IMG/VR virus record: IMGVR_UViG_3300021559_000022
Coordinates: 1 to 27,770 of that record
Strand: one strand, 5' to 3'
From: a virus
DNA length: 27,770 bases
Position numbers and translations under genes: made by a program. Position 1 is the first letter of the stretch. Every line of letters starts with the position of its first letter. The notes below the pieces were generated by a model. That model was not told the DNA's origin. It was given only the letters and a program-made list of their open reading frames with translations, and did no database searches. Of this stretch, positions 1 through 27,770 are shown piece after piece.

Positions 1-551
1 GCCGCCGTGGCAAGGCCAGCGCGCACGCTGCTCGGAACCGTGACCTCCTGGCCTTCCAGGTAGAACGGATGCTCCGGCGAGCCGGCCTCCTGTACTGCCT
101 CGCCGATCTTGCCTGCGGCCGCACCGATCCATTGGCCTGGCTTGGACAGGATCGCCGCGACGTCTTTGCCTTCCTGCGTCTTCGGCTCGTAGGTATAGTC
201 GTTCTGGGCCGCGTGAATCGCGTTCACCGCGTCGTCCAGCGATGATCCGGTGGCGAGCATTCCGGCGCCCTTGAAGCCGCCGTAGACATTCGCCGCTGCG
301 CCGGTCGCCAACTTGGCGAAGCCTTCCCAGCCGCCCCCGCCGAATGCGCTTTTCGATGCAGGTTCGACCGGTGCGGCGGCCGGCGGCTTTTTCGGCGCGG
401 CCTCGTCATTTGCTGCCGTCGCATCCCGCGCCATTTGACTGCTTAGCGACGCACCGACGTCCTGCGCCATGCTGGCGCTGAGCGATTGCGGCGGTTGCTG
501 CGGTACCGCAGATGCGCCCGCGTCAGCCGCCATCTGCTCTGCCAGGCTCAC
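1..551 (-). CDS. Probable virion ejection or internal protein, N-terminal part (runs off window)
   Basis: An open frame starts with GTG at 551, in a GTGA overlap with the stop of the preceding gene, and stays open to base 1, giving at least 183 residues of a longer protein. The N-terminus is rich in Ala, Gln and Ser and carries a loose internal repeat: SLAEQMAADAGAS, then SASMAQDVGAS, then SSQMARD. A Lys/Pro/Ala-rich stretch follows (AAPKKPPAAAPVEP), then a Gly-rich segment with GGGGWEGFAKLATGAAANVYGG. I do not recognise a family. Its place directly after two gp7/gp20-like genes is where P22-type phages encode the largest ejection protein (gp16), so an injected protein is the most likely role. 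That rests on position only. The real length and any catalytic domain lie outside the window. Confidence 0.6.
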   Translation of the reverse strand, partial: MSLAEQMAADAGASAVPQQPPQSLSASMAQDVGASLSSQMARDATAANDEAAPKKPPAAAPVEPASKSAFGGGGWEGFAKLATGAAANVYGGFKGAGMLATGSSLDDAVNAIHAAQNDYTYEPKTQEGKDVAAILSKPGQWIGAAAGKIGEAVQEAGSPEHPFYLEGQEVTVPSSVRAGLATA

Positions 552-2068
552 CGAAAAAATCCCATCTGCTCGAGCGCGCCGGCCTTGCGCACCAAGTCGG
601 CCTTGTCAGGCTGTCGCGCGATAAAGGCGCGGGCCGCCGCCGGATTGCTCTTGGCAAGGTCCTGGTATTGCCAGATGCGCGGGTCAGCGCTGGCCTCGAA
701 CTGTTGCCGCCCTTCCTGATAGGCCTGCGGATCGCCCGCGCCGCGGTTCGACAGGCGCGTGGTCTGCAGGAAGTTGCGCTCCGCTTGGTTCATCATGACC
801 TGACCGCGCAGTGTCCCGGCAGCCTCTTTGATGGCATCCGGATCCATGTGCGAGTTCGGCTGCCCAGCTTCGACCAGCGCGCGCGCGGCGTCCGTGCCGG
901 CTGGCGTGGAAATGTTCAACTGCGCCATCGCCTTGTTCAACAGATTCGTATCGGTCTGCGCGTCGCCGGTCGCATTGATGTGGAAGCCCCGCAGGATGCC
1001 CGCCATGTACTGCTTCTTGTCGCCGCCCGGTCCGGTGAAAGCTGAAGGCGCCAGGCCCTCGATTGTCTTGGTCAGACCCGTCACGAGCGGCAGACTCTGC
1101 GCGCTGGCGTTCAGGCCCGTGAAATGGTCCGACATGTCCTTTGCCACTCCGCTTTGGGCTTGGACACCGGCCGGAGTCGGCCACGGCGAAGGAGCTGCAC
1201 CACCCGCTGCCCCACCACCCAAGCCAGCGGCGCCACCGATATAGTGCGGCTGGCCCTGCAGGTCCATAACAATGCCGGGCGCTACGCCTGTCTTCACCTC
1301 AGGCCCAGTCGCACCCATCGGCAGCGGTGACAGCGGATTGAGCTGCACCGGCTGCGCGCCCCCGCCCGGCCCGGTGACGCTGCCGATCGCGGGCGCCTGC
1401 GTGCCAGCGACAGCGGCTGTCGGCTCGAACTGCTGGGCCAGATGCAGCAGGGAAGACTTGGTTTTCGCATCCGGAACGTGATCGCCCAGGTTTTGCAGCA
1501 GCGACTTCGAATAGCTCGCAGCCTGTGTGAGAGCGGCCGGTGCATTCGGCCCCTGCTGCTGCACGTATGCATCGATCTTCGACTGGATGACGCCAGGCGC
1601 GTCCGCAGGCGTGTTCTGATCGCCCATCGATGACCGGATGATGCCGGCCAGGTCGTTTTTATAGTTCTGGCCGAGCTGCCGCGCGCTGTCGGCGAGCTTG
1701 AGCCGCGTGTCCTGCGTCTTCACGATGTTCTGCACAACGTCCTGCCCGGTCATCGGCAGATATTTAGTTGCGAACTTCGTCAACGCAACCGGATCGGCGT
1801 CGCCATTCGCGCCCACCAGCGGATTGCCGTCTGGATCCTTGCCGTTCTGCATGGACGATTGCAGCAATTGCCGCTCGCCCATCGCCTGCTGATTCTGCTG
1901 AGCCTGGGCTTGCGCGCTCGCCTGAAGGGCTTGCCCGGTTTGAAGTGTCTGCTTCGCCTGTTGGATGCCGATCTGCTTCTGTTGCAACCCCATCAGATCC
2001 GATAGGGTCTGGACTCCCTTGCCCGTATCGACGTTCGTTGCTACTGGCGCCCCGCCGAAATCAGGCAT
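548..2068 (-). CDS. Probable DNA ejection protein (P22 gp20-like position and composition)
   Basis: This 506-aa protein starts with ATG immediately after the stop of the 235-aa gene and ends in a GTGA overlap with the next gene. Residues about 25-75 form a Gln/Ala-rich, probably helical segment (QQKQIGIQQAKQTLQTGQ, then ASAQAQAQQNQQA). A Gly/Pro/Ala-rich low-complexity region lies near 225-300, and the C-terminal 200 residues look globular and helical. There is no signal peptide or obvious membrane segment. Podovirus ejection proteins typically show this mix of helical Gln-rich and low-complexity sequence, and the gene lies at the end of the virion module. Family membership is inferred from context and composition, not from a catalytic motif. 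Confidence 0.6.
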   Translation of the reverse strand: MPDFGGAPVATNVDTGKGVQTLSDLMGLQQKQIGIQQAKQTLQTGQALQASAQAQAQQNQQAMGERQLLQSSMQNGKDPDGNPLVGANGDADPVALTKFATKYLPMTGQDVVQNIVKTQDTRLKLADSARQLGQNYKNDLAGIIRSSMGDQNTPADAPGVIQSKIDAYVQQQGPNAPAALTQAASYSKSLLQNLGDHVPDAKTKSSLLHLAQQFEPTAAVAGTQAPAIGSVTGPGGGAQPVQLNPLSPLPMGATGPEVKTGVAPGIVMDLQGQPHYIGGAAGLGGGAAGGAAPSPWPTPAGVQAQSGVAKDMSDHFTGLNASAQSLPLVTGLTKTIEGLAPSAFTGPGGDKKQYMAGILRGFHINATGDAQTDTNLLNKAMAQLNISTPAGTDAARALVEAGQPNSHMDPDAIKEAAGTLRGQVMMNQAERNFLQTTRLSNRGAGDPQAYQEGRQQFEASADPRIWQYQDLAKSNPAAARAFIARQPDKADLVRKAGALEQMGFFR

Positions 2069-2776
2069 CTAAGCTCCCGCGCCTGCGCCTGCGCTGAAAG
2101 CGGAAGAATCGATCGTCGGCGTGTTCAAGTAGCTCGGCGTTTGACCCTGGCCGCTCAGAAGATATGCGAGTGGCACGCCCGATTGGCCGATCGCATTGGT
2201 CCCGCCGACGATGCCACCAGCAGTCGATGCGGCCGCGCCGGCCTGCGATTGCGCGATCCCGGTGCCGAGCTGAGTGCCGGATGTTCCGACCTGTGTGGCT
2301 GCATTCTGACCGAGCCCGGCGATGCCGGAGAGGCGCGAGAAGATTGCATTGTTCTGCGTCTGAAAGCGATTGAACGCGTTCTGATAGCCGGTCGCCGCCA
2401 TGTTCTGATTGAACGACATCAGATCCTTCAGCGCCGGCCCCGATAGAGCCCCGATCCCAGGCGTATCGGCATTGCGCAGCGCTTGGCCTCCAGTTTGCAG
2501 CTGGAATTGATAGCCGGGGTCGAGGTTGTTCAGGAAGTCCTGCGGTGAGAAGCTTCGATTGAGTTGCCCGCCCGGTGCGAGCATGCTGTTCAGTTGCGAG
2601 GTTGCGCCATAGCCGGCCTGGATGAACGGCTGCTCTTGGGCGTTGATCGTGTTGAACATGCCGAGCTGCGTGTTCGCAGCCTTAACTTGACCTCCGGCCT
2701 GTGTATTGGCGGCCATGTTAGAGCCGATAGCGCCGACGAGAGCAGCGCCACCGATGGCAACAGCAACAGCACTCAT
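2069..2776 (-). CDS. Probable DNA transfer/ejection protein (P22 gp7-like)
   Basis: This 235-aa protein begins with a small hydrophobic Ala/Gly helix (SAVAVAIGGAALVGAIGSN) followed by residues rich in Ala, Gln and Asn. The middle holds QPFIQAGYGATSQLNSML and DFLNNLDPGYQFQLQTGGQA, a pattern I associate with small phage virion proteins annotated as DNA transfer or ejection proteins. The C-terminal third is Gly/Ala/Gln-rich. The hydrophobic, glycine-zipper-like N-terminus would suit a protein that enters or crosses a membrane during DNA delivery. It overlaps the cupin-SET gene by four bases (ATGA) and abuts the 506-aa gene, so the three ejection-type genes look cotranslated. Confidence 0.6.
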   Translation of the reverse strand: MSAVAVAIGGAALVGAIGSNMAANTQAGGQVKAANTQLGMFNTINAQEQPFIQAGYGATSQLNSMLAPGGQLNRSFSPQDFLNNLDPGYQFQLQTGGQALRNADTPGIGALSGPALKDLMSFNQNMAATGYQNAFNRFQTQNNAIFSRLSGIAGLGQNAATQVGTSGTQLGTGIAQSQAGAAASTAGGIVGGTNAIGQSGVPLAYLLSGQGQTPSYLNTPTIDSSAFSAGAGAGA

Positions 2777-3627
2777 GCCGCCCTCTTAATCTGCAATTCT
2801 AGTGAGCGACAATAATCGATCGTGATTTCCTCGCCGTCATCACCGCCAACGCAACCGCGAATGTTGCGCAGGGCAACCAGATCGATATCACCATTGGCCC
2901 GCAAGACCATCAGCGCATTCGGATCTTTGGCGTGGTTGGTGTAGCGTCCCGCTGGTGTACGCTTTCCATCGACGCGTGCCGGCATGATCAACTCTCCTAT
3001 CTCGATAGGTGCCGTGGCGATCAGCCCTCGGCCTTCGATGCAGGATGCGCCGACCTTGCACTTGTATCCGCCCAGCGGGATCTGATCGGATTCGTCTTCG
3101 CTCTGGGCTCGCGCTGTCTCGCCCGAAATGCCGAATTCCTTGAACACGACAAAGTAATCGGCGCGGTCTTCTTCCCGTTGCAATATCCTGCTCTGACGCG
3201 TGATGGCAGCGCGCTCTTCCCATCCGATGCTCTTATCCAGGAACATTGCCTCCAAGCGCTCTACGTCGTTCTCCTCAGTCGGATAGACATTGAGCCACAC
3301 CATATCTTCATGGACCCAACCGACCTTACGGCCTGGCTTACCCGTGAAGATCATCGGCGCTATGAGCTCGGTCACGCTGCCGTTCTCATTGATGATCGAT
3401 ACGCGCCCGCGCAGGAAAATGTTCAGATGCTCGGCCCTTTGCCGATGCCCGATCGCGAGCGTTCCGGCCGGAATATGCACTTCTCGGATGTAGATTCCCG
3501 GGCTGAAGCGGTGGATCACCGGGCAATCGATTTGCGGCAGTTGCAGCATGCCGACCTCTGCGCGCTCCAGATTCGCCCAGACAGCCGCCAGTACGCCGTG
3601 AACGGCAGTAGCAAAAAGCTCGCTCAT
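2773..3627 (-). CDS. Cupin-like plus SET-domain fusion protein (putative protein lysine methyltransferase)
   Basis: The 284-aa product has two recognisable parts. Residues about 36-130 look like a cupin beta-barrel: IYIREVHIPAGTLAIGHRQ, then HLNIFLRGRVSIINENG, then VWLNVYPTEEN. Residues about 188-275 match a SET domain: the SAM-side EGRGLIATAPIEIGELI (198-214), the RYTNHAKDPNA segment (229-239) corresponding to the NHS/C-x-PN motif, and GEEITIDY (265-272) with the expected catalytic Tyr272. SET enzymes transfer a methyl group from SAM to protein lysines. A helical, charged linker (130-187) joins the halves. There is no Cys cluster resembling pre- or post-SET zinc sites. The gene overlaps both neighbours by four bases inside the virion module, so a virion protein or an early host target delivered with the DNA are both possible. 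The domain call is strong; the substrate is unknown. Confidence 0.8.
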   Translation of the reverse strand: MSELFATAVHGVLAAVWANLERAEVGMLQLPQIDCPVIHRFSPGIYIREVHIPAGTLAIGHRQRAEHLNIFLRGRVSIINENGSVTELIAPMIFTGKPGRKVGWVHEDMVWLNVYPTEENDVERLEAMFLDKSIGWEERAAITRQSRILQREEDRADYFVVFKEFGISGETARAQSEDESDQIPLGGYKCKVGASCIEGRGLIATAPIEIGELIMPARVDGKRTPAGRYTNHAKDPNALMVLRANGDIDLVALRNIRGCVGGDDGEEITIDYCRSLELQIKRAA

Positions 3628-3962
3628 TGGATCAGCAACCCGGAGGCGGTGAACGTGATCGCCGCGGCGGCGGCGGCAAAGGCGTGGATCTGATGGCCGG
3701 CCGGCAGGACCTGGCCGGACAGCTCGGGCGAGACGTAGGACTCGCCCGGTGCGATGGTTCTGGCTGAAATCAAGGTCGTTCCCGGTCCGAGCGCTCCACC
3801 GGGAGTGATCCCGGCAGTTATCTGAATTGCGCCCGCCGTGGTGTTGGTGAACACCGCGCGGCCGACCTTGGCCGTAGTCTGCGTGGGGGCAGTATAGATC
3901 GCAACATCGGCGCTGCCAAGCTGCGCCGGAGCGACCAGAAGAACCTGCAGTACGGTGGTCAC
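3624..3962 (-). CDS. Small beta-rich virion protein, paralogue of the gene at 4824-5153
   Basis: This 112-aa protein is rich in Ala, Thr, Gly and Ile and has almost no charged residues, which is typical of beta-sandwich decoration or fibre-base proteins. It aligns end to end with the 109-aa product at 4824-5153. Both have an N-terminal strand with a (Q)LGSADVAIYTAPTQ / (Q)GAVGVAQTVIYTVPTN segment, then FTNTTAGAIQITAGI versus ISNTALVPVSVTVWAG, then a GTTLISARTIAPGES / STQLIPGVSIPATS segment. It overlaps the cupin-SET gene and the 211-aa gene by four bases each. I infer a virion role from position and composition only. Confidence 0.65.
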   Translation of the reverse strand: MTTVLQVLLVAPAQLGSADVAIYTAPTQTTAKVGRAVFTNTTAGAIQITAGITPGGALGPGTTLISARTIAPGESYVSPELSGQVLPAGHQIHAFAAAAAAITFTASGLLIQ

Positions 3963-5153: not shown

Positions 5154-5416
5154 CAGACATCCAGCCAGATCAGCGTGTTCGGCGTCACCGGATTCGGCGG
5201 CACGGTGTCATCCTCTGGAATCGAGAGGAACACGGCCGGCGGCACGATGATCGGCGTGCCGGGCCCGCTCAGAGTCTGCTTGCCGATGTTGTACAGGAAC
5301 AGGTACCAGTTGACGCCAATGATGATCTTGCCGGTTGGCTTACCGGTTTGCGCGTCCATCTCAGCCACGCCGAACGGTTCGGTCTGAGGCGGGATGGTCT
5401 GAGGCAAGAGGCTCAT
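5153..5416 (-). CDS. Small hypothetical virion-module protein
   Basis: The 87-aa product is Pro-rich with one compact central segment (KIIIGVNWYLFLYNIGKQTL) and otherwise extended sequence. I do not recognise a family. Its ATG overlaps the stop of the gp10-like gene by four bases, suggesting translational coupling to that plug protein, so a partner or tail-tip accessory role is possible. No signal peptide is visible; the aromatic IIIGVNWYLFLYNI stretch is too short and polar to call a membrane segment. Confidence 0.55.
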   Translation of the reverse strand: MSLLPQTIPPQTEPFGVAEMDAQTGKPTGKIIIGVNWYLFLYNIGKQTLSGPGTPIIVPPAVFLSIPEDDTVPPNPVTPNTLIWLDV

Positions 5417-7665
5417 GCGCTGAACGCCCGCAGAGTCACGCCGATCAGATCGCGCTTGACCGGATCGATCACTTCCAGATCCACAACGTTGTCACGTCCG
5501 AATGCGAGCTTGCGCCACATCGTGCGCGTTTTGTACTGGCCGATCTGCCCGATGGGGGCGGACCAGCGCTGCCCGAAGGTCTTGCCGCCGTCGCGCGAAA
5601 TCGCAATGCTCGCCTGCGGATTCGAGCCGAGGCCGCTCGCATTGCCAACGCCAGGAACGAAATCGAGTTGCAGGTTCGCCATGAAGACGCGACCGCGCTG
5701 CCCTTTATCCCAGATGTGCGGCGAGCGGCGCTTGGCAAGGATCGGCCAGCCGGAATCGGTAAAGGCATTGCGCGTTAGCTGATAGATCGAACCGCATTGA
5801 TAGTCCCCAACGATGCGCATGCCCTGAAAATTCATGAAGCAGTTAGAGCGGTGCCGGTGAAACTTTGCCAGATACGGATCGTAGGACAGGCGCTTGTGCA
5901 GAAGCTGAGACTGCGAGTCATAGCACCAAGTCACGTCCGCCGTCGGGAACGTGAGCACGTAGAACTCGTGCGTGTCCTCCTGGTAGGTGTAGCCGATCGC
6001 ATCCGAGGTGATCGGATATTGCGCGAGCTCCGTGCTGAAAGCCGGAGTGGACACCACATTGACGCTGAACCCGCTCGACAGAAGGATCACATTTTCGCCG
6101 CGCTCAGAGCGGCCGAACCAGATCAAGCCTTCCGTGCCGAACCGTGCGACGGAGTGCTTTGCCTTGCAGCCGGCCTGAATCGGCGTGCCGACCAACCTCT
6201 GGAACGCGAAATATTGGCCGCCCGCGTCGTACCAGATTTCGGTCGTCTTGTCGCCGATGAGCCAGAGCTGCTCCTTGTTTTCCATGACCGCGACCAGATT
6301 GTCGGCCGAGCTGTCCTTGAGCGCGAAGTTGGTCGCGTTGAATGTGATCCCGTACTGCACGCCGTTCGTGTAGAAGGTCTGCGTCCCCGGCTGATTGAAG
6401 ATCCACCAGCCATCGATGAAAGCAACGGTGTCGGCTCCAAGAAAGGCCGGATCAGTAATTTGCGAAAAAGCTTGCGTTGAGATGTTGTAGAGGTACCCGT
6501 ATGGCCCATCGACGATCACCGCATAGCCACCGATGTTGTTGTCGCGGATGTGGACTGGCCCTAGATTGGTCAACAGTGTGCCGACCGATGTCAAGGCCAA
6601 CGTCGGAAAAGACGTGGCAGTCGCCGGTGTCGCAACCGTCACCAGATAGCAGGTATTGCCGATCACCGCGAGGGCGGTCTGATCGTTCGGCAATTCCCAC
6701 AGCCCGCGCACTGGCAAATTTAGCACCGAAGACGGCAGTGGCCATGTCGTAGCAACCGGCGATGAGAACGGCTGTGTTGGAGGCGTGAAATTGCTTGTGT
6801 ATTGAGCGACGTTGCTGATCCGAATCTCGTCGATATATCCATCAAACTGTTGACCGAAGGCTTGTCCTATTGCACCGATTGCCAATCCTTGGGAATTATC
6901 GAGGGTACCAGACAAAGTGCCACTGCCGAATGAGACGCCATCGTAATAGCACGTGATCGTGCTGCCGCTACGAACCATTGCAAGGTGGTGCCAGATACCA
7001 GTCGAAACCACTGAACTACTGGTTACATGGAATCCATAGGTACCAGCAACCACACTGGCATAAAAGTCCAAGTGCCCTGACGCATCAAGTTGAAATAAGA
7101 CCCACTTAGGCGCGACTGCTCCAGAGCCAACAAAAGCAGAATCTCCGAAACTAGTGGAAAGATTGTTCCAATATGCGAATAACTCAACCGTGAAATCTCC
7201 GGTAAACGCCCATTGAGTGGCAAATGGTGTCGTGATGTAGTGTGTAAGTTGAGTATCGAGCGATGCATTACCGAACTTGAAATGCGAAGTAGTCAGCGTC
7301 GCGCTGTTGACAGGGCTCCAAGTGCTGCCGCCCAAATCCGTGAAAACATTCGATCCATTGGGTCCGTCCAGATGCAGCAAAGCCAGCACGCCAGCAGATC
7401 CTCCGCCGCCTCCCCCACCGCTTCCGCCACCACCAGTGCCTCCGCTTACTGTTCCACCTGGGCTGCCACCGCCAGGCGCCGCCGCAAGTTGGAAAAGGCC
7501 AGGACAGCCAAGCAGCCCTACGACTTCCTTCGCGTTCTGCTTGTCGACCTCCACATACCAATTAATGCAGGTCTGATTGTTTTGCAGAGGGTTCGGAGCG
7601 GTGTCCTCGCCACCGACGAATCCAAAATCTCCGAAGAGCTGAAGAGGTGCAGACTCGCCGGCCAT
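5413..7665 (-). CDS. P22 gp10-like packaged-DNA stabilisation (tail hub/plug) protein with an inserted LamG domain
   Basis: The 750-aa product opens with residues about 1-62 that match the start of P22 gp10-type proteins (NNQTCINWYVEVDKQNAKE, then GLLGCPGLFQL), and the matching beta-propeller-like body resumes after residue 312 (LPVRGLWELPNDQTALAVIG, later YDPYLAKFHRHRSNCF and QRWSAPIGQIGQYKTRTMWR). P22 gp10 is about 470 residues. The extra length here is a Gly-rich linker (about 65-91) and a LamG/concanavalin-like lectin domain (about 92-300: LALLHLDG, TGDFTVELFAYW, IWHHLAMVRSG, DGYIDEIRISNVAQYTSNFTPP). gp10 closes the portal channel after packaging. The insert adds a probable sugar- or surface-binding module. 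The neighbouring gene encodes a free-standing copy of the same domain. Confidence 0.8.
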   Translation of the reverse strand: MAGESAPLQLFGDFGFVGGEDTAPNPLQNNQTCINWYVEVDKQNAKEVVGLLGCPGLFQLAAAPGGGSPGGTVSGGTGGGGSGGGGGGGSAGVLALLHLDGPNGSNVFTDLGGSTWSPVNSATLTTSHFKFGNASLDTQLTHYITTPFATQWAFTGDFTVELFAYWNNLSTSFGDSAFVGSGAVAPKWVLFQLDASGHLDFYASVVAGTYGFHVTSSSVVSTGIWHHLAMVRSGSTITCYYDGVSFGSGTLSGTLDNSQGLAIGAIGQAFGQQFDGYIDEIRISNVAQYTSNFTPPTQPFSSPVATTWPLPSSVLNLPVRGLWELPNDQTALAVIGNTCYLVTVATPATATSFPTLALTSVGTLLTNLGPVHIRDNNIGGYAVIVDGPYGYLYNISTQAFSQITDPAFLGADTVAFIDGWWIFNQPGTQTFYTNGVQYGITFNATNFALKDSSADNLVAVMENKEQLWLIGDKTTEIWYDAGGQYFAFQRLVGTPIQAGCKAKHSVARFGTEGLIWFGRSERGENVILLSSGFSVNVVSTPAFSTELAQYPITSDAIGYTYQEDTHEFYVLTFPTADVTWCYDSQSQLLHKRLSYDPYLAKFHRHRSNCFMNFQGMRIVGDYQCGSIYQLTRNAFTDSGWPILAKRRSPHIWDKGQRGRVFMANLQLDFVPGVGNASGLGSNPQASIAISRDGGKTFGQRWSAPIGQIGQYKTRTMWRKLAFGRDNVVDLEVIDPVKRDLIGVTLRAFSA

Positions 7666-8342
7666 CAGAAGGTGAACGCCGACGATGGTGGCGTGAAGTT
7701 GGATGTATAGCGCGCCACGTTACTGATGCGAATCTCATCGACGTAACCATCGATGGCTTGGCCGTTGCCAGCAGCATCGCCACCGATGCTGAGAGCGCTG
7801 CTACTGTCAGTAGAAAGTGTCCCGGAAAGCGATGCGGTGCCAAATGACGTGCCATCCAGATATCCGGTACCAACGCCGCTAGATCGAACGAGTGCAAGAT
7901 GATGCCATGCGCCGGTCGTGATAGCGGTTGCCTCGCTGATACTGAAACCCCAAGTGCCTCCAGAGGTTGAGTAGAGCATTGCAATGCCACCGGTCGTATT
8001 CAATTGAAAAAGAATCCAATGCGTGCTAAGGGCTCCCTTGGAGATGAGAGCATTGAAACCGCCCGTGGGATTTGTATTGAGATATAGCTGAAGCTCAACC
8101 GTGAAATCTCCCGTGAAATTCCAATTAGCGGCTTCCGGAGTCGTGATGTGCTTGTTGTTCGTGGTGGCAAGCGATGCCGTACCAAATTTGGCTTGGGTAG
8201 TGGATAGCACGGCGCTGTTCACGGCGCTCCACGTGTTGCCGTAGACGTCGGTAAACGTGCTCGATCCGTTCGTGCCATCAAGATGCAGCAGCGCGAGCGA
8301 TGCCACGCCCCCAGCGCGATGCTTGGTTAGAGCCGATCTCAC
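7665..8342 (-). CDS. Free-standing LamG/concanavalin-like lectin-domain virion protein
   Basis: The 225-aa product is essentially one LamG jelly-roll domain (about residues 15-222) with the marks SLALLHLDGTNG, NFTGDFTVELQLYL, AWHHLALVRSSG, GYLDGTSFG and DGYVDEIRISNVARYTSNF. These domains usually bind carbohydrates or other surface ligands. It is clearly related to the insert in the adjacent gp10-like protein, sharing nearly the same ends (YVDEIRISNVARYTSNFTPP versus YIDEIRISNVAQYTSNFTPP). The start is GTG at 8342 in a GTGA overlap with the upstream fibre-like gene; the stop overlaps the gp10-like start (TGATG). It has no signal peptide, so it is a virion component rather than a secreted protein. 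Confidence 0.8.
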   Translation of the reverse strand: MRSALTKHRAGGVASLALLHLDGTNGSSTFTDVYGNTWSAVNSAVLSTTQAKFGTASLATTNNKHITTPEAANWNFTGDFTVELQLYLNTNPTGGFNALISKGALSTHWILFQLNTTGGIAMLYSTSGGTWGFSISEATAITTGAWHHLALVRSSGVGTGYLDGTSFGTASLSGTLSTDSSSALSIGGDAAGNGQAIDGYVDEIRISNVARYTSNFTPPSSAFTF

Positions 8343-11173: not shown

Positions 11174-11824
11174 TCACGCCGCCTTTTGCAGCAGCCCGCT
11201 TGCGACGCAGTGATCGTAGAAGTTGCCGCGCCAGGCGCGCGAGCCGCGATGGGTGAAGCCGACATCGGCATCGACCCACAGGAAATTGCCGGTCTCGCAC
11301 CAGCGCCGGCAAAACCAGATGTCCTCGCCATAGGCGCTCTCGTCCGCCTCGAGCCGGAAATAGGGCTTGGCGAGCTTCGCGAATGCCGAGCGCTTGATGC
11401 GCAGGAAGGCGGTCGGGATTTCGAGCGCCTGGAAAAGCCCGTCCTCGATGACGCCGGTCAGCGCGCCCTGGTGGTACTCGCTATTGCTCTCGGCGCTGCG
11501 CTTGGGCACGAGGCCGCCCACGACCTCCTGCCGATGCGACAGGATGCGCGGCAGCACGCGCGCATCGAAGCCGACATCGGCATCGACGAAAATCAGATCG
11601 TCGGCATCGCTCGCCAGGAAGGCATCGACGATCGTGTTGCGGATCCGGCCGAGACACGCGCCGGCGCCCGCATTGACGTTGCGCTGCAGGCGCACGCCCA
11701 GCCGCGTGAGGAGGATGGCGGCCTCTACCATCGAATGATCGTGATCGATAGAGACCGCCATGTCGAAGCACGGCGTGCCGAAGAATACCGTCTTCGGCAA
11801 CGCCGGGGCGGCGAGTTCGGCCAT
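11174..11824 (-). CDS. GT-A-fold glycosyltransferase-like protein
   Basis: From the ATG at 11824 (an in-frame TTG lies nine bases upstream) the product has 216 residues. It shows the family marks of phage GT-A glycosyltransferases: TVFFGTPCFD near the N-terminus, RIRNTIVDAFLASDADDLIF then VDADVGFD with the metal-binding DxD (about residues 81-83), YGEDIWFCRRW (GED about 166-168), and a late His (FTHRG) of the kind that completes the metal site. Such enzymes move a sugar from a nucleotide donor onto a protein or glycan. The gene lies between two near-duplicate virion genes and is spaced two bases from the upstream stop, so a virion protein is a plausible acceptor. The acceptor and donor cannot be read from the sequence. 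Confidence 0.75.
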   Translation of the reverse strand: MAELAAPALPKTVFFGTPCFDMAVSIDHDHSMVEAAILLTRLGVRLQRNVNAGAGACLGRIRNTIVDAFLASDADDLIFVDADVGFDARVLPRILSHRQEVVGGLVPKRSAESNSEYHQGALTGVIEDGLFQALEIPTAFLRIKRSAFAKLAKPYFRLEADESAYGEDIWFCRRWCETGNFLWVDADVGFTHRGSRAWRGNFYDHCVASGLLQKAA

Positions 11825-11826
11825 GC

Positions 11827-12237
11827 TTACCAATCGATCTGGTTACCAGAGGCCGGAGCCGACCAGTTCGGCTGCACGCGCAGCACCGTCACCACGTAGA
11901 CCTGGGCGGAGGTAGGCGTGATGGTCGCTGCCGTCACGTTGGCGAAGTTGATCGCCAGCGTATCGGCTGCGGAGACGCGCGTGCCGCCGATCACCAGGCC
12001 GGCCTGAGTGGTGGGCTTCTGCACCAACACGACATCGGTCGTCAGCAGACCGATCCCGGTGGTGGCGAAGGTCTGCTCAGCCGAGGTCGCGCCAGACACG
12101 GATGCGGGCGAGAGCGTGAGGTTGAAGATGCCGACCTTCCAGACATTGCCGACCGGCATCTGGACGGTATCGGGCAGGCTCGCACTTTGCGGGCCCGGGT
12201 TGGAGCCATCGACGTTGGTAACTGCGGGGAAGGCCAT
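11827..12237 (-). CDS. Small beta-rich virion protein, close paralogue of the gene at 10820-11164
   Basis: The 136-aa product has an N-terminal extension (MAFPAVTNVDGSNPGPQSA) and then the same domain as the 114-aa gene: VSGATSAEQTFATTGIGLLT, VLVQKPTTQAGLVIGGTRVS, ADTLAINFANVTAATITPTS. A strong ribosome site (AAGGAG) lies just upstream of the ATG and between it and the coat gene, suggesting high expression. Its place right after the major coat gene fits a decoration or head-stabilising protein. Confidence 0.7.
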   Translation of the reverse strand: MAFPAVTNVDGSNPGPQSASLPDTVQMPVGNVWKVGIFNLTLSPASVSGATSAEQTFATTGIGLLTTDVVLVQKPTTQAGLVIGGTRVSAADTLAINFANVTAATITPTSAQVYVVTVLRVQPNWSAPASGNQIDW

Positions 12238-18477: not shown

Positions 18478-18736
18478 CGGTTAACTCGCTTGCGTCTCGG
18501 ACATTAACGGTCGCCTGCACATAGTTCGGGATCAGGCGCGCGTACAGCTTGTAGAACTCGCCCTTGTTGCGGCGCGCCCAGGTCGCCATCGCCTTGATGC
18601 CACCGATGGCATCGAAGACGGCAATGATGTTCTCCTTGCATTGGCGACCGATCTTGTCTTTCGAGCCTTTCGGACGGCCCGGGCCAGGCTTGGCAGGTGG
18701 CGGCGCTCGACCGCCTGAATTCCAGTTGCCGGCCAT
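18386..18736 (-). CDS. Probable terminase small subunit
   Basis: I start this 116-aa protein at the ATG at 18736, which overlaps the upstream stop by one base (TGATG); the frame is open further upstream but runs over another gene. The N-terminus is basic and Pro-rich with GPGRPKGSKDKIGRQ, a pattern common in small-terminase and packaging proteins. A helical segment follows (AIGGIKAMATWARRNKGEFY), then KLYARLIPNYVQATVNV. Small subunits bind the packaging site and load the large subunit. The order directly before TerL supports this call. Confidence 0.7.
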   Translation of the reverse strand: MAGNWNSGGRAPPPAKPGPGRPKGSKDKIGRQCKENIIAVFDAIGGIKAMATWARRNKGEFYKLYARLIPNYVQATVNVRDASELTDGELVSIITGPSSRGADGAQAGEAEPHELH

Positions 18737-19083
18737 CAGCGCGCCCTCGGATCGTGCGACTCGCGGGCGTACCAGCGCGAAATGAAGTCTTGGCACAGCG
18801 GCGTATTGGTGAACCGCAGCGCCCCGCTCGGCGCTGGCTTCAATGGCGGCTCGTCTTCCTCGCCCAGCAGCGTCAGCACGTAGAACTCGCCACGGTTGCG
18901 CACGTTCAGAAGCTGACCCTTTGTCCAGGACGGAGGGACAACCGGGACGGAGGGATCTTGGATTGCGATCCACGACTCCGAACCATTTTCCTCAATGATC
19001 CGCACCGCACGCTGCGGCTCGGTCGCGGCCGGTATCGGCAGCACGACAGCATTCTTGGAGCGCAGGCCGATAGTGCCGTTCAT
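18736..19083 (-). CDS. Hypothetical protein upstream of the terminase
   Basis: The 115-aa product is unrecognised. It is beta-prone in the first 90 residues (NAVVLPIPAATEPQRAVRII, SVPVVPPSWTKGQLLNVRNR, GEFYVLTLLGEEDEPPLKP) and ends with a basic, Trp-containing segment (CQDFISRWYARESHDPRAR). No catalytic motif or membrane segment is visible. It overlaps the GroES-like gene by four bases (ATGA) and the small terminase by one base, so it is cotranslated with the packaging genes. Confidence 0.6.
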   Translation of the reverse strand: MNGTIGLRSKNAVVLPIPAATEPQRAVRIIEENGSESWIAIQDPSVPVVPPSWTKGQLLNVRNRGEFYVLTLLGEEDEPPLKPAPSGALRFTNTPLCQDFISRWYARESHDPRAR

Positions 19084-23635: not shown

Positions 23636-24616
23636 TTACGCTACGCGCTCGCTTTCCAGATCGAAAAGCTCCTGCATGGCGTCGGCCTTGCCCTCATAGG
23701 CGATCTGCACGTTCTTCACAGCCTGGCGGTAGTACGATGCCTTGAGTTCGACCCCGAACGCCTTGCGCCCGGCCACCACGGCACCATAGACCTCGGAGCC
23801 GACGCCCATGAACGGCGTCAGCACCGTTTCGCCGGGATTGCTCCACAGCGTCAAAATGCGATCGATCACGTCGAGTTGCAGCGGATGGACATGCTTTTCG
23901 TCCTCTGTATCGCGCGCCTGCCGAAAAGGCAGCACGCGGTTCATGCGCACGTCGTCCCAAAACGCGCTTGCGTACTGTCTCCAAATCCAATGCGAATAGC
24001 GATTCTCCGTCTGCTTGCCGGTCCAGCCTCGGTACTTGAGTACATCAACCGGAGGGCGCCGCTCGCCCGCGTACTCAAGCAGTCCGTGCGGATGGGTGAT
24101 CGGGCGCTTATTTTCGCCTGCGCGCCGGAATACCAGCAGGTAATCGGCATTGGCGACGCTGCAGCGCGATGAGTCATCGACAATCGTCTTGTGCGCCAAG
24201 CTCTTTTGCAGCGTGCGATTGCGCACCGCGAGCGGCTCTTTCCACACGGCATAGCGCGCCACATACGCGAAGCCTTCCTTCTGGTGCAGACGAATGATAT
24301 CGCCTGGGAAATCTACTAGCGCATCGACGCCGCTGTTGCCGGTCGGAACGTCCATGCAATGCACGGCCGTCATACGGCCTGGCATGGTCAAGCGCGCGAT
24401 TTCTTGCACGACGAACGCATAGTGATCGAAAAATTCCGCATAGCTGCCCGCGTTGGACAGGTCGCGGTCGTTCGAACTGTAGTGGTACAAGCCACCGAAC
24501 GGTGGAGAATAGATCGACAGCGCAATCGATTCGGCCGGCAGCGACTGCATGACCTCGATGCAATCCGCTTGATAGATAGCGAACCGATCGGTAATCAACT
24601 GTTCGTTGACAGCCAT
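23636..24616 (-). CDS. DNA adenine/cytosine-N4 methyltransferase (phage type)
   Basis: From the ATG at 24616 the product has 326 residues; a longer open frame upstream lies over the helicase gene and has a shadow-like composition. The order of motifs is that of the beta group: motif IV SPPFGG (37-42) near the N-terminus and the SAM-binding motif TPFMGVGSEVYGAVVAGRKA (267-286) with FGVELKASYYRQAVKNV near the C-terminus. The usual Asp of DPF is Thr here, as in a set of phage enzymes with S/T-PFMG-x-GS. It methylates the exocyclic amino group of A or C. Its start lies 22 bases inside the helicase end, so the two are cotranslated. Roles in DNA protection or gene control are possible. Confidence 0.85.
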   Translation of the reverse strand: MAVNEQLITDRFAIYQADCIEVMQSLPAESIALSIYSPPFGGLYHYSSNDRDLSNAGSYAEFFDHYAFVVQEIARLTMPGRMTAVHCMDVPTGNSGVDALVDFPGDIIRLHQKEGFAYVARYAVWKEPLAVRNRTLQKSLAHKTIVDDSSRCSVANADYLLVFRRAGENKRPITHPHGLLEYAGERRPPVDVLKYRGWTGKQTENRYSHWIWRQYASAFWDDVRMNRVLPFRQARDTEDEKHVHPLQLDVIDRILTLWSNPGETVLTPFMGVGSEVYGAVVAGRKAFGVELKASYYRQAVKNVQIAYEGKADAMQELFDLESERVA

Positions 24617-25974
24617 GCGGGCATCTCCTGCTGCTTTTCGAATGTGGTTGAGCGGCCGATATGCATGGCGCCGTTCATTTCGGCGACCAGATGTGAAAAC
24701 ATCCGATCGGCCTGGGCGGCCTTGCGCTGCAGATTCTTGAGCACGCCGATCTCGCCCTCGGTGGTCACGATATCGACCGTGACCTCGTTCACTTGACCGA
24801 AACGCCAGCAGCGCCGCACCGCCTGGTAATACTGCTCGAACGAATGCGACGGGAACACCGTCACCCGATGGCAGCGCTGAAAGTTCAGGCCCCAGGCGGC
24901 GATTTTTGGCTTTGTCACGAGTACGCGCGCCTGCCCATACGCGAAGGCCATGAGCTTGGCCTCCTTCTCGTCGTCCCGATCGTCGCCCGCGACCTGCAGG
25001 CAATCCGGGATGGCCTCCTGCAGCGCATCGCCCTCATCATTCAAGTGGCACCACACGAGCGCTTGGGCGGGCTTGCCGTTGACCAGCTCGGCGACTTTCG
25101 CCACGCGATCGTCGATCGTGCGACGCCGCTCCTCGCGCTGCTCCTTCAGCCCTACTGCTGGCAGCGCGAACAGCATCCCGTCGGCCAGTGTGCTCGCCTC
25201 CACCAGATGTTCCCGTTCAGTGAGCGGCGGCAGAATGAAATCCTCATCCGAGAATCCGAGGTCAGACGGCCGGCGCATGGCGCGCGCCCAGGAGCACACC
25301 CAGCGCCAGAACGGCAATTCGGCGTGTCCCTTGAAGCGCCATTTCACGACCTCGCCGCGCGTGCGCCCGGTCGCGCTATTGTTCAGGTCGTTCTTAAAGA
25401 ACCGATTCAGCATATCCATGTGGCCCAAGTAGCCGAGGGCCTCACTCGAAGTGCCCAGCTCGATGTAATCGTTCGGCGCCGCAGTCGCAGTCGCCAGCAG
25501 GCGATACGGGATCTTGCGCAGGAACACCGTGACGGCGCCACGCGTAGCGCCGTCGAATGACTTCAGGATCGAGGATTCGTCGCAGATGACGCCAGCGAAA
25601 TCCTCCGGCCTAAACTTGTGGAGCTGCTCGTAATTTGAAATGTTGATGCCAGGCCGCACCGAACCGTCGCGCGAGCGGTGAATCTGAATGCCGAACTTAT
25701 CGGCCTCTAGGACCATCTGAGCGCCTACCGCTGGCGGGGTCAGCAGGAGCACCCTGCCCGTCGTCTTACGGACCACGTTCTCGGCCCACACAAGCTCCAT
25801 CGGTGTTTTGCCTAGGCCGCAATCGGCAAAGATGGCCGCCCGCCCCTTGCGCAGCGACCAATCGACGAGCTCGCCCTGAAAATCGAACAGGAATTCAGGC
25901 AGCCAGAGTGGCGCGAAACCGAACGAATTGTCCGAATGCGCCTTACGGTGCAGGAATTCCTCGTAAGCGGTCAC
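24595..25974 (-). CDS. SNF2-like DEAD/DEAH-box helicase
   Basis: I place the start at a GTG at 25974, in a GTGA overlap with the helix-turn-helix gene, giving 459 residues. Motifs in order: ADCGLGKT (Walker A, 50-57), LLLTPPAVGAQ (Ia), ICDESSIL (DExx box, 131-134 for the CDES part), ATATAAPND (III), LVTKPKIAAWGLNFQRCHRV (V) and QAVRRCWRFGQ (VI, ending at 394), the last being typical of SNF2 enzymes. It is a compact translocase with no fused nuclease. Similar helicases are paired with DNA methyltransferases in many phages, as here. It may act in replication, recombination or removal of bound proteins. Confidence 0.85.
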   Translation of the reverse strand: MTAYEEFLHRKAHSDNSFGFAPLWLPEFLFDFQGELVDWSLRKGRAAIFADCGLGKTPMELVWAENVVRKTTGRVLLLTPPAVGAQMVLEADKFGIQIHRSRDGSVRPGINISNYEQLHKFRPEDFAGVICDESSILKSFDGATRGAVTVFLRKIPYRLLATATAAPNDYIELGTSSEALGYLGHMDMLNRFFKNDLNNSATGRTRGEVVKWRFKGHAELPFWRWVCSWARAMRRPSDLGFSDEDFILPPLTEREHLVEASTLADGMLFALPAVGLKEQREERRRTIDDRVAKVAELVNGKPAQALVWCHLNDEGDALQEAIPDCLQVAGDDRDDEKEAKLMAFAYGQARVLVTKPKIAAWGLNFQRCHRVTVFPSHSFEQYYQAVRRCWRFGQVNEVTVDIVTTEGEIGVLKNLQRKAAQADRMFSHLVAEMNGAMHIGRSTTFEKQQEMPAWLSTNS

Positions 25975-26120
25975 TTCGGCCGCCCGTTCTTCCTGCCGAG
26001 CGCCTGCCCGACCCACTCTCGGCTCTTGCCGACGCGCCGGGCGATCTCGGCGTCGGATATGCCAAGCTCTCGCCAGCGCAGCATTTTTCGCTTAAGGTCC
26101 TCGGTCATCTTCAGTGCCAT
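25971..26120 (-). CDS. Small helix-turn-helix protein, first gene of the leftward operon
   Basis: A 49-aa frame starts with ATG at 26120 and ends in a GTGA overlap with the helicase. It is basic, with a clear helix-turn-helix (ISDAEIARRVGKSREWVGQA, residues 21-40). It is the first product of the minus promoter, whose predicted start point lies only about one to three bases before the ATG, and no ribosome site is present. That suggests a leaderless message, as for some phage repressors. It could be a Cro-like regulator of the palindromic operator, or a replication or packaging helper. Internal ATGs at codons 5 and 13 are alternative starts. Confidence 0.65.
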   Translation of the reverse strand: MALKMTEDLKRKMLRWRELGISDAEIARRVGKSREWVGQALGRKNGRPK

Positions 26121-27076: not shown

Positions 27077-27770
27077 ATGAAATTCGAGATCAAGAACCGA
27101 TTCACGGGTGCCGTTCAGTTGACAGCCGAGATTGACTGCGCCGAGGACGAGAGCGTTTCGATCAAGCTCGGGCTGGCGGTCAAATGGGCGATCAGCGCTG
27201 ACGCCAACCTCGCTGGCGCCAACCTCGCTGGCGCCAACCTCGCTGGCGCCGACCTCGCTGGCGCCAACCTCGCTGACGCCAACCTCGCTGGCGCCGACCT
27301 CGCTGGCGCCGACCTCGCTGGCGCCAACCTCGCTGGCGCCAACCTCGCTGGCGCCTACCTCGCTCGCGCCTACCTCGCTGGCGCCAACCTCGCTGACGCC
27401 AACCTCGCTGGCGCCTACCTCGCTGGCGCCTACCTCGCTGACGCCAACCTCGCTGGCGCCAACCTCGCTGGCGCCGACCTCGCTGGCGCCAACCTCGCTG
27501 ACGCCGACCTCGCTGGCGCCGACCTCGCTGGCGCCTTGAAAATCGATCCGAGCGAGATCCCGGTCATTCCCAACATCGACGACACGATTCTGGCCGCGAT
27601 CGAATCCGGCGGCGTGCTCGACATGAGCGCTTGGCACGGCGATGGCGGATGGTGTGGCACGACCCACTGCCGCGCCGGCTGGGCGATCCATTTTGGCGGC
27701 GAGAAGGGCAAGGCGCTACAGGATAAGCTCGGGCCGAATGTGGCCGGCACGCTGATCTATGAGGCATCCC
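27077..27770 (+). CDS. Pentapeptide-repeat protein (C-terminus outside window)
   Basis: An ATG at 27077 opens a frame that continues past the window end, at least 231 residues. An N-terminal domain of about 40 residues ([20 protein letters not shown]) is followed by 22 tandem pentapeptides of the type A-(G/D/R)-A-(N/D/Y)-L (residues 41-150), which should fold as a right-handed square beta-helix. The C-terminal part has a conserved-looking segment: [20 protein letters not shown], then MSAWHG, then [20 protein letters not shown], with two Cys and two His that could bind metal. I associate this tail with pentapeptide proteins found in phages. Some pentapeptide proteins mimic DNA and bind gyrase, but no such function is shown here. 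Confidence 0.85.
27197..27526 (+). repeat. 22 tandem 15-bp units encoding pentapeptides
   Basis: The unit is GCTGGCGCCAACCTC. All 22 copies are in frame and differ only at codon 2 (GGC, GAC or CGC) and codon 4 (AAC, GAC or TAC). The other three codons never change, not even at silent positions, which points to recent expansion or conversion. A partial copy follows (27527-27535). Confidence 0.95.

Follow-up and report, generated by a model that had tools for sequence, protein, structure and literature searches.

The stretch of DNA analysed here, referred to below as the window, is a virus record of 27,770 bases from a short-tailed phage. On its minus strand, positions 2773-3627 encode a protein of 284 residues in which a cupin domain is fused to a SET domain. 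The cupin domain, an RmlC-like jelly roll of approximately residues 32-130 (3238-3534), is assigned from a structural match to TM1459 and from the phage protein families phrog_12032 and phrog_24280. It is followed by a helical segment (approximately residues 131-185; 3073-3237), which is delimited by the secondary structure of the AlphaFold2 model and by the alignment, and the later part of which accompanies the SET where this is a separate gene. The SET domain, approximately residues 186-284 (2776-3072), is assigned from Pfam and from a model of residues 150-284 compared with the vSET structure 3kma. The three marks on which the original prediction was built, GRG, NH-x-x-x-PN and GEEITIDY, are readily located as G199-R200-G201 (3025-3033), N231-H232-x-x-x-P236-N237, which begins within the motif R228-Y-T-N231-H232 (2932-2946), and G265-E-E-I-T-I-D-Y272, which contains the motif E266-E267-I-T-I-D271-Y272 (2812-2832) with the presumed catalytic tyrosine. 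Over its full length, the protein matches phrog_34170 (2.6e-84 against PHROGs), a family whose function is not annotated.

The gene overlaps both of its neighbours by four bases, with an ATGA at each junction, as had been noted before. The gene that follows (2069-2776, minus strand) encodes a gp7-like DNA-ejection protein (phrog_598, 5.8e-18), and the next one (548-2068, minus strand; 506 residues) is by its position the second gene of a putative ejection cassette, comparable to P22 gp20. No family in PHROGs or Pfam matches this second gene, and its relatives occupy the equivalent place in the loci L011-L015 and L033-L035. Directly upstream lies a small gene (3624-3962, minus strand), whose relatives stand ahead of the cupin gene in many loci but not in all. 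Further upstream, a P22 gp10-like head-closure (Hc3) gene (5413-7665, minus strand; phrog_578, 2.2e-80) carries a LamG (concanavalin A-like) domain inserted near its N-terminus (Laminin_G_3, 1.2e-19), and the adjacent gene (7665-8342, minus strand) encodes a second LamG protein. The description of the cupin-SET gene as encoded between virion genes is therefore right as to the virion operon, but too general as to the neighbours, which are specifically an ejection cassette.

Elsewhere in the window, an open reading frame among the head genes (11174-11833, minus strand; phrog_1574) looks glycosyltransferase-like by eye (FVDADVGF) and has no Pfam match. Positions 23636-26016 (minus strand) hold overlapping genes for a DNA N6/N4 methyltransferase and a helicase, both of which are matched by phrog_16, and the pair resembles a split phage helicase-methylase. 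At 27196-27535, a 15-base repeat occurs in an array of 22.7 copies, which translate in frame on the minus strand into (ASEVG)n-like pentapeptides.

The Pfam SET family (PF00856) matches residues 226-272 with 29.8 bits, against a curated cut-off of 22.4. An AlphaFold2 model of the full-length protein, built from 39 aligned sequences, has a mean pLDDT of 90.8 and a pTM of 0.86, and shows a cupin barrel at the N-terminus and a SET at the C-terminus, so that both folds of the proposed fusion are predicted in one chain. When compared with the PDB by Foldseek, the SET part of this model matches MLL1 (E 1.8e-4) and SETD8 (1.9e-4). Residues 150-284 modelled alone (pLDDT 83.3) find PBCV-1 vSET (3kma) as the best solved match, with an E-value of 7.6e-6 and a TM-score of 0.64 on the target, followed by MLL1 (1.6e-5) and also SETD8, and nothing but SETs is found among the best 50 Foldseek matches listed. 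A SET fold for residues 188-275 had been named as a point on which the original prediction would stand or fall, and on the evidence of these models the window protein contains a genuine one. In the profile alignment, the stretch from the GxG block to the NHS block is about 8 residues long in the phage SET vs about 43 in MLL1, and a canonical SET-I insert is accordingly missing from the window SET. The domain is unusually small for a SET, and with SET-I almost gone it can be called minimal. The SET-I region is variable within the SET family and is not strictly required.

Conservation of the catalytic residues was followed in an alignment of 82 sequences, three rows of which are cupin fragments and not SETs, which leaves approximately 79 distinct intact SETs. 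Apparent motif losses in these three rows (L005, L012 and L120) were rejected, as the fragments had been caught by the SET profile. Among the intact SETs, G199, G201, N231, H232, E267 and Y272 are invariant, with the qualification that in one locus (L028) the contig ends before the position of Y272; Tyr272 and the Asn231-His232 pair, the loss of which would have spoken against the prediction, are thus conserved. The remaining substitutions are few: D271 is replaced by Asn in two sequences, N237 by Ser in two, and R228 once, in L098. Median dN/dS values are 0.11 for the SET and 0.10 for the cupin, and the cupin-SET protein is under purifying selection. Since the catalytic residues are kept and dN/dS is about 0.1, the SET enzyme of the window is very probably active, and a chance resemblance is excluded because hundreds of homologues keep the catalytic residues.

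The N-terminal half of the protein matches phrog_12032 (2.1e-32) and phrog_24280 (1.8e-26), and no Pfam cupin family matches the window protein at E-values up to 1. In the full-length model it has the double-stranded beta-helix fold, with TM1459 among the Foldseek matches (E 1.8e-5). The conserved two-motif metal site of cupins is not found across the 39 cupin-SET proteins, in which H67 and N69 are kept, the motif-2 histidine (H106) is present in only 21, and the motif-1 glutamate is not conserved. As a cupin without a conserved metal site, the domain seems more likely to have a structural or adaptor role than an enzymatic cupin chemistry. It belongs to a widespread type of phage protein, common in podoviruses and mostly without a SET, and no solved phage structure that contains this phage cupin was found.

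Relatives of the window protein are encoded on at least 574 stretches in IMG/VR, and the best 80 of these are all cupin-SET proteins. In records of cultured phages, the cupin is present in 61, most of them without a SET, and eight records cover most of the query: Rhodoferax phage P26218 (twice), zth2-2, three Manatee Spring podoviruses and PH1 (twice). Cupin-only forms account for 50 of 173 loci, three of which are truncated by contig ends and were omitted from the tree. A separate SET elsewhere in the genome was found in none of 34 records of cupin-only phages by a search that recovered 13 of 14 known fusions. Annotations of SET domains in phage genomes already exist: MW202744.1 labels its own SET copy as a PBCV-1 H3K27 methyltransferase structure, and BFVD includes phage entries labelled "SET domain containing proteins". 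In the open-licence literature, no paper on a phage SET of the cupin-linked type was found, nor any description of the function, the cupin partnership or the ejection linkage of a phage SET, in agreement with the earlier remark that the combination has no described function in phages.

The linkage between the two domains was examined at loci sought with the SET motifs and confirmed with the SET-only sequence, some of the contigs having been seen already. Of the 77 loci from this SET-only search, 74 are cupin fusions, two have adjacent SET and cupin genes and one is cut by a contig end, so that a cupin is present in every intact locus. Four arrangements occur: fusions with the cupin first or with the SET first, and separate neighbouring genes, again with either one leading. 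The reversed fusion, SET-cupin, is found in four loci (L170, L195, L203 and L229) and requires at least two origins on well-supported branches of the SET tree. In the cupin tree, most fusions fall in a single clade of 36 rows (100/98), and L170 groups with a cupin-only row (99/97); in neither tree are the deep branches well resolved. Several rearrangements of the physical link between SET and cupin have thus taken place, and they speak for a partnership in function.

Two integrase-bearing elements show further contexts. In Paraburkholderia ferrariae (L096, 5665-7112), the cupin and then the SET are encoded by separate genes with an ATGA overlap, next to a TerS-like gene; the surrounding element has integrase and replication genes, no structural genes were seen in it, and it is possibly a phage satellite. 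The gene after the SET resembles window positions 18736-19083. In a Comamonadaceae contig (L095, 5860-7504), a SET without a detected cupin lies upstream of a gene that looks gp7-like, judged by its N-terminus only, and no capsid genes were recognised by eye.

A search for homologues and their gene neighbourhoods, as had been suggested, recovers cupin-SET relatives with a near-constant gp7-like neighbour. A gp7-like profile recognises the gene behind the cupin or SET in 214 of 238 loci; as 69 such genes went into building the profile, this count is partly circular. The DNA-ejection family phrog_598, which is independent of this profile, matches the neighbours in L216, L170, L203 and L229, whose architectures are outliers, and in L191, L194 and L228, and has no match in the records of BPP-1, zth2-2, L045, PH1, L195, L095 and L096. 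In L096, the SET and the cupin are present and a gp7-like gene is not detectable, which counts against the model preferred below. The cassette of L216 and L218 consists of the SET, the cupin, the gp7-like gene and two further large genes followed by a TerS-like gene; it is preceded by replication-type genes and has no head-closure gene alongside. To judge from this gene order, it is the ejection genes, and not the head genes, that the cassette seems to accompany when it moves.

For the activity, substrate and timing of the enzyme, and for the cupin as a virion or assembly protein, we infer a model that is preferred tentatively, at somewhat below an even chance: a late lysine methyltransferase, docked through its cupin to the ejection-protein module, that modifies virion proteins during assembly. 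In this model, the cupin-SET protein, expressed late, would act as a protein-lysine N-methyltransferase whose minimal SET sits on a phage-specific cupin. The docking site of the cupin would be either the ejection-protein module, with the gp7-like protein and its partners, or the portal-proximal core, and the SAM-loaded SET would thereby be presented, during assembly, to lysines on ejection-module or portal-proximal proteins, possibly on the cupin itself. Methylation may then tune the packing, stability or refolding of the modified proteins on DNA delivery. A coat or tail protein had originally been suggested as the target, which is not the most specific guess, because the gp7-like ejection gene is the neighbour that stays constant. 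The gp7-like protein itself is not supported as an obvious substrate: a comparison of SET-bearing with cupin-only phages revealed no lysine that is kept in the former yet missing in the latter, the equivalent of K117 being present in 55% vs 59%, and in one SET phage the gp7-like protein has just one lysine. Many podoviruses carry the cupin without a SET, and methylation is therefore not needed for ejection in general.

Instead of acting during assembly, the protein might be a putative virion-packaged effector, loaded with the ejection proteins, which would accompany the DNA into the cell and methylate host proteins early in infection, for example nucleoid proteins or RNA polymerase. The model for such a role is the closest solved SET, PBCV-1 vSET, which is packaged in the virion and trimethylates host histone H3 at K27 (PMC7019647). 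The position of the cupin-SET gene beside the ejection-protein genes is consistent with this idea, as is the restriction of the SET to some cupin lineages, which would be expected of an accessory effector. The reduced SET-I substrate wall also agrees with it, and has the consequence that the choice of substrate cannot be read from known SETs. However, the SET motifs and the gp7-like link stay constant while phage sources and backbones vary, and the stable tether to a usually SET-free cupin points to a structural site more than to free diffusion in the cell. Packaging as an effector, the main rival of the assembly model, is regarded as unlikely, though worth keeping in view. The fuller version, in which environmental podoviruses package a SET on a cupin carrier in the ejection apparatus, deliver it into the cell and methylate host proteins, is a shade more doubtful; if true, such a packaged and delivered SET would be the bacteriophage counterpart of chlorovirus vSET.

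The SET might also be directed at the cupin or at small adjacent virion proteins and stabilise the particle, the ejection link reflecting operon position only. The fusions and split pairs always involve the cupin, and K101 of the cupin is retained in 38 of the 39 cupin-SET proteins; however, the equivalent lysine is retained in 20 of 24 cupin-only relatives and is thus not SET-specific, and L095 seems to have a SET without a cupin, which makes this explanation improbable. It is slightly less probable again that the enzyme modifies host proteins late in infection, such as translation or nucleoid proteins, with no relation to the virion beyond expression from the late operon: among the SETs of bacteria and archaea whose targets are known, some do modify DNA-associated proteins (reviewed in PMC10117894), but the cupin linkage in four arrangements and the near-constant ejection neighbour would be left unexplained. 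Least probable of all is a catalytically dead SET fold serving as a structural or SAM-binding module, which the near absence of the SET-I region might suggest, and against which stand catalytic residues, including Y272 and N231-H232, that are invariant over deep divergence, together with a dN/dS of about 0.1.

To our knowledge, work on SET methyltransferases has been confined almost wholly to eukaryotes and to bacterial effectors directed against them. In the present case, hundreds of phages of bacteria conserve a minimal SET, to all appearance active, as a repeatedly re-linked part of their DNA-ejection cassette, and lysine methylation would be an addition to what is known of the chemistry of phage virions or of the early stage of infection. 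With the cultured carrier Rhodoferax phage P26218, the question comes within reach of mass spectrometry.

Among known systems, the nearest is the protein's own family, phrog_34170, which is unstudied and in which gene 30 of Rhodoferax phage P26218 likewise has both the cupin and the SET domain; gene 29 of P26218 is gp7-like. The N-terminal domain is homologous to phrog_12032 ("short tail fiber protein") and phrog_24280 ("tail fiber adhesin"), with Bbp23 of BPP-1 and BA3_0007 of a Thalassomonas phage as examples, which lack the SET; the fibre names are annotations for which no structural or experimental support was found. In P22-like phages, these cupins occupy the same slot between the head-closure and gp7-like genes. 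P22 itself has in the slot directly before gene 7 the little-studied gp14 (DUF2824; L254, 8911-9366), which was rejected both as a cupin homologue (hhalign probability 0.3%) and as an acetyltransferase (GNAT) of the BPP-1 type (0.65%). In BPP-1-type phages, a GNAT acetyltransferase gene lies next to or near the cupin (L008, 5480-5944; L003, 9093-9581; L045, 7184-7630), so that two types of group-transfer enzyme, GNAT and SET, are found beside the phage cupin. They were rejected as interchangeable modifiers, as zth2-2 and L045 carry both and the GNAT is a lineage trait; the other virus records yielded a GNAT in just L111, L155 and, as a weak match, L135, with adjacency to the cupin established in none.

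On the SET side, the domain of MLL1/KMT2A is the best sequence-profile match in the PDB (4.6e-9) and has collinear motifs, and it differs in its far longer stretch between the GxG and NHS blocks. PBCV-1 vSET (A612L; 3kma, 1n3j) is likewise a minimal viral SET and the best structural match, with a significant profile match (1.7e-6) over the half from N-H to DY. This packaged protein of 119 residues comes from an algal virus and acts on H3K27 (PMC7019647), whereas the phage protein has a cupin as its fusion partner or as the product of a neighbouring gene, is encoded in a podovirus late operon and comes from a virus that infects bacteria.
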